This document shows, piece after piece, positions 8,753-12,982 of a stretch of DNA of 64,000 nucleotides (the first letter of the stretch is position 1; each line of letters opens with the position of its first letter). The notes under the pieces are model-generated. The model did no database searches. It had not been told where the DNA came from and saw nothing but the letters and a program-made list of their open reading frames with translations. The stretch is from Nitratireductor pacificus pht-3B (GTDB lineage Bacteria; Pseudomonadota; Alphaproteobacteria; Rhizobiales; Rhizobiaceae): positions 124,001-188,000 of the forward strand of contig NZ_AMRM01000006.1 of assembly GCF_000300335.1 (NCBI RefSeq), in the 5' to 3' direction. Made by a program: the position numbers and the translations under genes.

Positions 8753-11700
8753 TCAGACCGCCGCAAGCAGGCTGGCATTGCCACCGGCCGCCGTGGTGTC
8801 GACGCAGATCGCCCGTTCATGCACATAGGCCGCCGGATAGAGCGCTTCCGTGATGAGCGGCACGATCGGGCCACTGCGCCCGGCCAGAGCGAGACGCAGG
8901 GCTCGTAGCCAGCCATCGTCCCCGCCGGCGGCAACGGCATCGAGCGGCAGGGACTTCAGGCTTGCCGGGTCGATGACGCCATCGGCGGCAGCGACTGGCA
9001 GCCCCTGGCCAAGCAGCGGCTTCAGGATGCGGGATGCGTCGGGGTGCACGGCAAGCACGACATTGCCCACCGCCAGCGCCTGAACCGCCTGCGCGAGCAG
9101 CGCCGGCTCGTCGGCGCCGAGGCACAGAACCGCACCACGCGGCGTCAGCATCAGCGTGTTGCCCTCGCCCGTCGGTCCCGGCAGGTCGACCGGCCCCTGG
9201 TCGAGCGCCGCAGCCGCGGCCATGGCCTCCGTCGCCTTGCCGCGCAGGAGCCGGCGCAGCGCTGCGAGACGGTCGCTGCGCCCAACCCATGCCCCGTCGC
9301 GCTGCGGCATCAGGCTTGCGACGAAATCGGTGGACAGAACCGAGCCTTCCGCGCTTGCCACCGTGTCCGGAATGGCCCGGCGGAAACGGCGCAGATAATG
9401 GGGGCCACCCGCCTTTGGGCCGGTTCCGGACAGGCCCTCGCCGCCGAAAGGCTGCGAGCCGACAATGGCGCCGATCTGATTCCGGTTGACGTAGATGTTG
9501 CCGGCATGGACGCGGTCGATGATGTGCTGGGCGCGCGCGTCGATGCGCGTGTGAAGCCCGAAGGTAAGACCGTAACCCTTTGCGTTGACGGCTGAAATCA
9601 CCTCGTCGATGGCATCGGCATCGAAGCTCGCCACATGCAGAACGGGGCCGAAAACCTCGCGTTCCAGCTCGTCGATGCCGGAAACCCTGAATGCTGCCGG
9701 CGCCACGTGTCGTCCACCCTGCGGCGCGTCGAGCGCGGTGATGAGACGCCCCTGGTCCGTCATCCGCCGGTTGTAGCCGGCGATGCCCTCCAGCGCCTCG
9801 CTGTCGATGACGGGGCCGACATCGGTGGAGATCTCCCACGGATCGCCGACCGTCAGCGCATGCATCGCGCCTTCCAGCATCTCAAGCACGCGCTTCTCCA
9901 CGTCCTTCTGGACGTAGAGCATGCGCAGGGCCGAGCAGCGCTGACCGGCGCTCTGGAAGGCGGAGGCGACGATGTCGCGCACCGCCTGCTCCGGCAGCGC
10001 GGTCGAATCGACGATCATGGCGTTCAGGCCGCCCGTCTCGGCGATCAGCATCGCGTCCGGCGCGGCATTGCGGGCAAGCTGCCCCTCGATCAGACGGGCC
10101 ACCTCGGTCGAGCCGGTGAAACAGACGCCGGCGATGCGCGGATCGGCGGTGAGCGGACCGCCCACCGTCGGGCCGTCGCCGGTCAGGAGCTGGATCACGT
10201 CCTGCGGGATGCCTGCCTCGTGCATCAATACCACGGCCCGCGCGGCGATCAGTGACGTCTGTTCGGCCGGCTTGGCGATCACCGTATTGCCGGTGACCAG
10301 CGCGGCGGCAATCTGCCCGGTGAAGATGGCGAGCGGGAAGTTCCAGGGGGAGATGCAGACGATGACGCCCCGCGCCGCGGTATCCTTCTCGGCCTGCCTC
10401 GCCTCATTGGCGTAGTAGCGCAGGAAGTCGACCGCCTCGCGCACTTCGGCGATGCCGTCAGCCAGCGTCTTGCCCGCCTCGCGCGTCGCCAGGGCGAAGA
10501 ACTCCGCCGCATGGGTCTCATACAGATCGGCGATGCCGCGCAGGATCGCCGCACGCTCGCCGACCGGCCGCGCCGCCCAGGCGGGTTGCGCCGCTAGCGC
10601 GAGGCCCACAGCCTCGGCCGCCTGTTCCTCGGTGGCGTCGCGCACGGTGCCGACCTGCTCCGACACGCTGGCCGGATTTGCAACGGGACGCGTCGCGCCC
10701 TTGCCCTTGGCCCGGGTGATCGGTTCGGCCTGCCAGGCGTGCGGCGCGGCAAAGGGCGCGCGCGCGCCGCCTCGAGCGCGGCCAGGGTCAGCGGATCCGT
10801 GATGTCCCAGCCCCGGGCGTTGACCCGGCCGGCGCCGAAAATCGCCTGCGGACGCTGGATCGCGGGATTGGTGGCGGGCTGTCCCTCGAGGCTCGCGAAG
10901 GGATCGCGGGCAATCGTCTCGGCGCTGACCGCCGTATCGACGATCTGGTGCACGAAGGAAGAGTTGGCGCCGTTCTCCAGCAGCCGGCGGACCAGATAGG
11001 CCAGCAGGTCCTGATGCGCGCCAACCGGCGCATAGATGCGGCAGCGCGTGCCCTCCCGCTTGCGGACAGCCTCGTGCAGCGCCTCGCCCATCCCGTGCAG
11101 GCGCTGGAACTCGAAAGCGGCGCGGTCGGGCGCCATGGCGAGGATCGCCGCCGCCGTATGGGCGTTGTGGGTGGCGAACTGCGGGTAGATGCGGTCTGTC
11201 ATGCCGATCAGCTTGCGCGCGCAGGCAATGTAGCTGACATCGGTGTTCACCTTTCGGGTGAACACCGGAAAGCCGTCCAGCCCCATCACCTGGGCGCGCT
11301 TGATCTCCGTGTCCCAGTAGGCGCCCTTGACGAGACGCACCATGATGCGCCGGTCGAGCCGCTCAGCCAGTTCGTAGAGCCAGTCGAGCACGTAGGGGGC
11401 GCGCGGCCCATAGGCCTGGACGACGACGCCGAAACCGTCCCAGCCGGCCAGCGCCTCGTCGGCCAGAACCGTCTCGATCACGTCGAGCGACAGGTCGAGC
11501 CGGTCCGCCTCCTCCGCGTCGATGTTGAGGCCCATGCGGGCGTCGCGCGCCGCCAGCGCGAGGCTTTTCAAGCGCTCGACCATGACCGGCAGCATCCGGG
11601 CCTTCTGTGCCTCCTCATAGCGCGGATGAAGCGCCGATAGCTTGACCGAGATGCCGGGATTGGCCCGGATGTCGTCGCGGTTCGAATGCCGCTTCAGGGC

Positions 11701-12366
11701 CGCGATCGCGTCCGCATAGGCCTTGTGGTAGCGCAGCGCGTCCGCTTCGGTGCGGGCCGCCTCGCCCAGCATGTCGTAGGAATAGGAATAGCCCTTCGCG
11801 ACCATGGACTGACCGCGCTTGATCGCCTCGTCGATGGTGCGGCCGAGGACGAACTGCTCGCCCATCTCGCGCATCGCCTTCGATACCGCCTTGCGGATGA
11901 CCGGCTCGCCCAGCCGACGCACGAGGCCGCGGAGGGTCGCCTCGACGCCCTCGCCTTCCTCGTCCAGGACGCGCCCGGTCAGCATCAGCGCCCAGGTGGA
12001 GGCGTTGACGAAGATCGAGGCCGATTCACCCGAATGCGCCGACCAGTCATGCGGCGCGATCTTGTCGCGGATCAGGTCGTCCATGGTCTCGGCGTCGGGG
12101 ACGCGCAACAGCGCCTCGGCGAGGCACATCAGCGCGACGCCCTCGCGCGTCGACAGCCCGTATTCCGAGAGGAACGCCTCCATCAGATGCATGTCGCCCG
12201 AGCCACGCACGGCGCGCACCAGCTCGGCGGCGTCCGCCGATATCGCCTGCCGGTCGGCCTGCGACAGGGCCGCGAGCCGCACCAGATCGTCCACGGCCCG
12301 CGCCTCGTCGGCCAGGTAATGGGCGCGGATGGTGTCTCGTCTTCCGGCAGGGGCAGTGTTTGGCAT
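8753..12366 (-). pseudogene. putA: putA: proline dehydrogenase / P5C dehydrogenase, broken by a frameshift
   Basis: Bifunctional flavoenzyme oxidising proline to glutamate, about 1,200 codons in total, matching type-B PutA (Sinorhizobium type). The N-terminal frame (start ATG 12366, GAGG upstream) carries the PRODH barrel: RLVKGAYWDTEIK, YPQFATHNAHT, CRIYAPVGAHQDLLAYL. The C-terminal frame (down to 8753) carries the aldehyde dehydrogenase: SPWNFPLAIFTGQIAAAL, the GFCFTGSTEV-like CFTGSTEVA, ETGGLNA and SAGQRCSALR (catalytic Cys). The two frames meet at a run of six GC pairs (10756-10767). One GC fewer would restore a single frame, as would a -1 slip. It may be an assembly error, a slippage allele or true inactivation. 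The protein is otherwise undegraded. Confidence 0.9.
10756..10767. repeat. GC-dinucleotide run at the putA frame junction
   Basis: Twelve bases of alternating G and C (six GC units) lie exactly where the putA reading frame changes. Upstream on the minus strand the frame reads LTLAALEAARA; downstream the continuing homology reads PFAAPHAWQAEPITRAKGKG. Simple GC runs like this are prone to replication slippage and to sequencing error. Five units would give an intact gene. Confidence 0.85.
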
Positions 12367-12529
12367 GGGGACCTCGAACGATTTTTGCGGGCCGCGCGGA
12401 CTGCACGGCACTGGTTTCGGCCGCAACATAACACAGCCGCTGCACCGCTTCGGGCTGTATGATTGCGCATGGCAGGTAATTTGGACTAAGTTTTGGACGC
12501 AATCATTCTCAATGAGACCTCATTTCCCC
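12367..12529. promoter_or_regulatory. Divergent putA / putR intergenic region
   Basis: The 163 bp between the putA start and the divergent Lrp-type gene must hold both promoters. The stretch near 12475-12515 is the most AT-rich part (around TAATTTGGACTAAG and AATCATTCTCAATGAG) and is the likely binding area for the regulator, by analogy with divergent putA/putR pairs. I see no perfect palindrome that would define an operator. Confidence 0.4.
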
Positions 12530-12982
12530 ATGTCAACAGAACGAATAGACCGCATCGACCGCAACATTCTCGACGCGCTGACGCAGGACGGGCGCCTGTC
12601 CATCGCGGAACTGGCGCGCCGGGTCGGCCTGTCCAAGACGCCGGTTCAGGCGCGACTGCGCCGGCTGGAGAAGGAAGGCTATATCCGCGGCTATTCCGCG
12701 ATCATCGACCGGGCGCGCATCGGCGAGGGTCACATCGCCTTCGTGCAGGTGGAACTGTCCGACACGCGCTCCTCGGCGCTCGCTGCCTTCAACAAGGCGG
12801 TGCTCGCGGTGCCGGAGATCGAGCAGTGCCACATGACCGCCGCCGGCTTCGATTATCTCCTGAAGGTGCGCACGCGCGACATCGCCAGCTACCGGAAGAT
12901 TCTCGGCGAGAAGATCTCCGCCCTGCCGCACGTGGCGCGCACATCGACATTCGTCACCATGGAAACGGTCAAGGACCGCTAG
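12530..12982 (+). CDS. putR: Lrp/AsnC-family regulator of putA (PutR)
   Basis: Transcription factor expected to activate putA when proline is present. From the ATG at 12530 it has 150 residues. An N-terminal winged helix-turn-helix (about 5-60; DRIDRNILDALTQDGRLSIA and VGLSKTPVQARLRRLEKEG) precedes a C-terminal RAM ligand-binding domain (about 65-145; GEGHIAFVQVELSD and HMTAAGFDYLLKVRT). It is divergent from putA, the classic arrangement. Longer in-frame starts (for example 12512) exist, but the family start matches MSTERIDRIDRN. Its TAG stop overlaps the TAG of the convergent peroxidase gene. Confidence 0.92.
   Translation: MSTERIDRIDRNILDALTQDGRLSIAELARRVGLSKTPVQARLRRLEKEGYIRGYSAIIDRARIGEGHIAFVQVELSDTRSSALAAFNKAVLAVPEIEQCHMTAAGFDYLLKVRTRDIASYRKILGEKISALPHVARTSTFVTMETVKDR

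Follow-up and report, generated by a model that had tools for sequence, protein, structure and literature searches.

PutA is a bifunctional enzyme in which proline dehydrogenase (PRODH) precedes P5C dehydrogenase (P5CDH); separate PRODH and P5CDH proteins are normal in other bacteria. Frame changes inside bacterial genes are known from programmed −1 frameshifting, of the dnaX and IS element type, and from phase-variable genes driven by simple sequence repeats (SSRs). The accessible part of the GeneTack report (PMC3711429) states that singleton frameshifts with full-length protein homologues are expected to be sequencing errors, not genuine indels, and that phase variation is called for clusters of at least five frameshifted homologues. 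In E. coli, C_CC.U_UU.G is given among the heptamers that shift at more than 0.10% without stimulators (PMC4066793, accessible part). The accessible parts of four further papers concern mutations in putA itself: it was hit repeatedly by mutation in E. coli, with eight events (SNPs and large deletions) across two patients (PMC7845604); three alleles were found in a long stationary culture of E. coli (PMC7858067); point mutations occurred in Klebsiella, where deletion was neutral (PMC12911405); and one paper gives a putA substitution only (PMC3352902). The titles and abstract openings of the best-ranked open-access literature matches held no precedent for a GC tract in putA.

We analysed a 64,000-nt stretch of the Nitratireductor pacificus pht-3B genome (the window), in which putA lies on the minus strand, with a start near 12429 and an end at 8753 (Table 1). 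The upstream ORF matched Pfam PRODH, Pro_dh-DNA_bdg and Pro_dh (complete, 1–278 of 278), and the downstream ORF, taken from 10666 to 8753, matched Aldedh. The NCBIfam PutA model NF008869 was divided between the two ORFs at positions 9–543 and 574–1021 (9–543 and 549–1021, in two frames, in the genome search). PRODH thus precedes P5CDH in the usual domain order, and the single continuous frame present in the 17 relatives used for the invariant-column test below is missing here; the frame is disrupted in comparison with intact homologues, as in a pseudogene. These results agreed with the initial annotation, which had described a putA split at a (GC)6 run, with PRODH homology in one frame and P5CDH homology in another. 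Upstream of the tract, the P5CDH frame was open back to a stop at 11365–11363. Because the PRODH frame was also open as far as its own stop, there is no other interruption in putA. The divergent Lrp/AsnC-family ORF is intact, as had been said of putR. Its start is probably over-long, since the HTH match begins only at residue 73–74, and its position suggests a role as regulator of putA.

Table 1. Features of the putA locus (positions in the window).
Feature	Position	Strand	Remark
PRODH half of putA	10594..12429	-	true frame as far as the tract, followed by some 50 out-of-frame residues; stop at 10596-10594
(GC)6 tract	10756..10767	-	two extra bases, absent from all 29 aligned relatives
C_CCT_TTG, X_XXY_YYZ slippery heptamer	10750..10756	-	in the zero (PRODH) frame; its -1 frame is the P5CDH frame
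P5CDH half of putA	8753..10750	-	no interruption between tract and stop; past the tract, the first mechanical start is GTG 10666
Lrp/AsnC-family regulator, divergent, putR-like by position	12329..12982	+	mechanical ORF

The junction DNA was searched in 100 genomes (this one and 99 relatives), and 84 matched, this one included. We aligned the 30 best loci, one per genome (this genome and 29 relatives); the junctions of the 54 other matching genomes lie outside the alignment. The two extra bases were absent from all 29 aligned relatives, including all nine other genus members searched, and a recurrent break at this site across relatives was rejected (0 of 29). In the closest relative (G003, 85% identity), the GC run is 10 nt long, one GC unit fewer. 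The comparison of tract lengths proposed in the initial annotation gave 12 nt here, 10 nt in two of the 29 relatives and 2–8 nt in the other 27, indicating that the repeat is not kept at the site. Eighteen named loci from the genome collection were also retrieved, the best being two from Chelativorans (74 and 76% protein identity), and 15 were compared. In this loose alignment, the gap sizes in the 13 loci with letters at the tract fit extra bases confined to the window; L045 and L047 are blank at this position.

We then asked the same of the family. PutA matched at E 1e-100 in 114 of 121 family genomes, this one included, and only this genome carried it in two frames on the same contig with no N gap. 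Several apparent splits were discarded. A run of N interrupts the gene in G104 (L117, G104:C2:16500-20300) and mimics a split, both matches share one frame in G135, and the two matches sit on different contigs in G043, G114 and G137. Single partial matches start at a contig end in G010 and G013, as judged by coordinates, or run to a contig end in G101, G158 and G134. A same-genus draft outside this sample, G005 (86% complete), showed two apparent frame changes in the P5CDH half of its putA (L010, G005:C195), around locus nt 2785 and 3672, one of them near GGGGG; draft errors or an independent inactivation are the likely causes.

Codon changes were assigned to branches with G009 as the outgroup. 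In the PRODH half, 54 synonymous and 5 nonsynonymous changes fell on the branch of this genome, compared with 50 and 7 on that of G003; the P5CDH counts were 81 and 12, compared with 59 and 10. Among columns that 17 other proteins keep invariant, this genome differed at 0 of 289 positions in PRODH and 1 of 266 in P5CDH, inside the range of controls put through the same test (0–10 and 0–18, respectively). This test used 17 of the 29 relatives and left out G005; a version with 18 relatives that included G005 cut the P5CDH columns to 152 and gave G005 113 departures. No relaxed selection or further lesion in putA was seen in the codon changes, the invariant columns or the open frames, and the view that the rest of the gene is undamaged was upheld. 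Judged from the sequence, both halves are under normal purifying selection. The lack of decay indicates that the break arose very recently compared with the divergence of the species, is compensated during translation, or is not real; the selection signal fits a very young mutation and a sequencing error equally well.

The genome contains one Pro_dh, and none of its 17 other aldehyde dehydrogenases exceeds 36% identity to the P5CDH half. With one Pro_dh and no close P5CDH, a second putA copy was rejected. A scan of seven of the 17 dehydrogenases at a strict cut-off of 1e-150 gave matches to models of other enzymes for three and no match for four. A distant monofunctional P5CDH may be among the 17, seven of which were covered by this strict scan.

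The frameshift background of the assembly was estimated by reading coding-like ORFs from contigs C4 and C53 of G003 in contigs C6 and C1 of this genome (G000). The scan yielded 110 and 99 orthologues (39,908 and 37,367 codons), that is, 209 ORF comparisons over about 77,000 codons, and may miss frame changes near gene ends. Three candidates were obtained, of which putA was the only convincing one. The other two, a gene on G000:C6 labelled PhaC-like from its translation by eye and a small ORF on G000:C1, were discounted from their coordinates because they fall where an over-long ORF start overruns the likely real start. Reverse scans, with G000 ORFs read in G003, gave eight candidates, which would mark breaks in G003, not in G000. 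Tracts of (GC)6 or longer occur at 12 separate places in the genome (14 forward matches when overlaps are counted). Of the 11 tracts other than that in putA, at least eight are spanned by long ORFs whose codon-position composition is coding-like; the remaining three (L074, L075 and L079) are ambiguous, all as judged by composition, not homology. The single convincing frameshift and the tracts in continuing ORFs together suggest that the assembly is good in the sampled parts, although a lone error at a GC repeat may still have occurred. At L075 (G000:C18:104000-107000), a (GC)7 tract at 1469–1482 has no ORF with a clear coding pattern on both sides; the tract may lie between genes or mark another frame junction. 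In the window, GCGCGCGCGC had two overlapping matches compared with a dinucleotide-shuffle mean of 6.82, i.e. no excess; long GC alternations were rarer there than the shuffles predict, a hint that such runs are avoided.

These data bear on whether the two bases exist in the organism. That the consensus or the assembly is wrong at the GC run, with putA intact in the living strain, is a serious possibility. The gene is otherwise sound, with purifying selection in both halves, and the break is a singleton at a self-complementary GC repeat, which matches the published expectation for singletons (PMC3711429, accessible part). The putA frame changes of G005, which lie elsewhere in the gene, indicate that such flaws do occur in drafts from this group. 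Against an error stand the finding of just one convincing frameshift in 209 ORF comparisons and the position of at least eight of 11 other (GC)6 or longer tracts in continuing ORFs. This low background moved the odds slightly toward a real mutation, against the GeneTack expectation. The recurrent putA mutations seen in E. coli (PMC7845604, PMC7858067) also count in favour of a real one.

If the bases are real, the gene might still be expressed in other ways. The P5CDH frame is −1 relative to the PRODH frame, and the slippery heptamer, which the initial annotation had missed, follows the GC run immediately on its 3' side, in the zero frame. Ribosomal −1 slippage on C_CCU_UUG would yield PRODH alone and a full-length PutA with one residue more than that of G003, so that the allele would stay functional. 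We consider this unlikely, even though the direction is right, the heptamer is a known shifter at more than 0.10% in E. coli without stimulators (PMC4066793, accessible part), an SD-like GAGG lies 13 nt upstream, and P5CDH is under purifying selection. Heptamers of the X_XXY_YYZ form are also rare in the zero frame of this genome's genes (145 in 93,506 codons), and CCCTTTG occurs there twice, one of which may be putA's own. However, the heptamer is a by-product of ordinary Pro-Phe codons once the frame is displaced, and in-frame CCCTTT is present at the same place in four of the 29 relatives with no frameshift at the site. The RNA around and 3' of the junction was no more stable than its shuffles (z 0.15, 0.38 and 0.19, from folding that leaves pseudoknots aside), the frame junction was kept in none of the 29 relatives, and shifting at about 0.1% would hardly be enough for growth on proline. 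With the junction not conserved and the folding ordinary, programmed −1 slippage lacks support; with a zero-frame slippery heptamer right after the run, a low-level leak to full-length PutA is plausible. A self-buffered null allele, in which the slip that breaks the gene also makes the −1 site, so that PRODH alone and some full-length protein are made, the PRODH:P5CDH ratio is shifted and proline use is kept, seems quite unlikely. Very unlikely is reversible phase variation of proline use through changes in tract length. The (GC)6 run lies exactly at the junction and the closest relative differs by one unit, but 12 nt would be a short tract for a contingency locus, conservation of the repeat is lacking, and not one of the 29 relatives, each species represented by one genome, is off-frame at the site; the unconserved repeat and the lack of extra bases elsewhere leave phase variation unsupported. 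There is also one frameshifted homologue here, compared with the five or more needed for a GeneTack call (PMC3711429, accessible part). Gene fission, with P5CDH made as a second protein from an internal start, is hardly conceivable. Separate PRODH and P5CDH are usual elsewhere in bacteria, GTG codons at 10666, 10645 and 10609 precede the PRODH-frame stop in the P5CDH frame, and a GGAG lies 12 nt before GTG 10645. On the other hand, the P5CDH frame contains no ATG or TTG between 10500 and 10860, no well-placed ribosome site was seen there by eye, and there is no sign of conservation. The ORF from 10666 matches Aldedh from profile position 18 only, so a protein started there would have its N-terminal part cut. 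Among the four options listed in the initial annotation, recent inactivation and assembly error are therefore the favoured ones; phase variation is without support, and −1 slippage survives as a possible leak from a heptamer in the right frame and place, not as a programme.

In this assembly, two bases absent from the aligned relatives separate two intact halves of a putA with no decay, in a genome with no second proline dehydrogenase. We infer a real, very recent repeat-slippage indel with loss of P5CDH, to which we give a probability of about 0.5 and which we slightly favour over a consensus error. A single slippage event would have added one GC unit to the GC run at the PRODH/P5CDH hinge of an ordinary bifunctional PutA, as a very recent mutation of the strain, either natural or acquired in culture. 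The main product would keep the PRODH domain complete, end in a foreign tail and lack P5CDH. Slippage to −1 at C_CCU_UUG might leak a little full-length PutA, and growth on proline would be poor or absent.

If the slip is real, the strain is predicted to be a natural mutant deficient in P5CDH, with PRODH still made and P5C possibly accumulating, and its proline catabolism past P5C should fail or be weak; a single repeat slip can then mislead metabolic reconstruction from a draft genome. If it is an error, one draft genome needs a minor correction. The slip-made heptamer offers a compact test case of whether a frameshift can be partly self-cancelling in translation.

Compared with known systems, this putA shares with programmed −1 frameshifting a zero-frame X_XXY_YYZ heptamer at the frame junction, but it has neither conservation nor an unusually stable structure, and its heptamer comes from Pro-Phe codons. 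Like SSR-driven phase-variable genes, it changes frame at a short tandem repeat; unlike them, its tract is short and not conserved, the gene is metabolic, and one tract length is known, with one genome per species. A conserved genetic switch at the GC run is thus not supported. The singleton frameshifted genes of GeneTack, attributed to a recent indel or a sequencing error, are a closer match: the break occurs in one genome only in the searched sets, the homologues are full-length and intact, and no tested feature sets this putA apart from that class as the accessible part of the report describes it (PMC3711429). Except that its halves stand in different frames in this assembly, the gene encodes a bifunctional PutA of the NF008869/PRK11904 type, in which PRODH with its N-terminal domains is followed by P5CDH and then by a C-terminal region, an order shared with its relatives.
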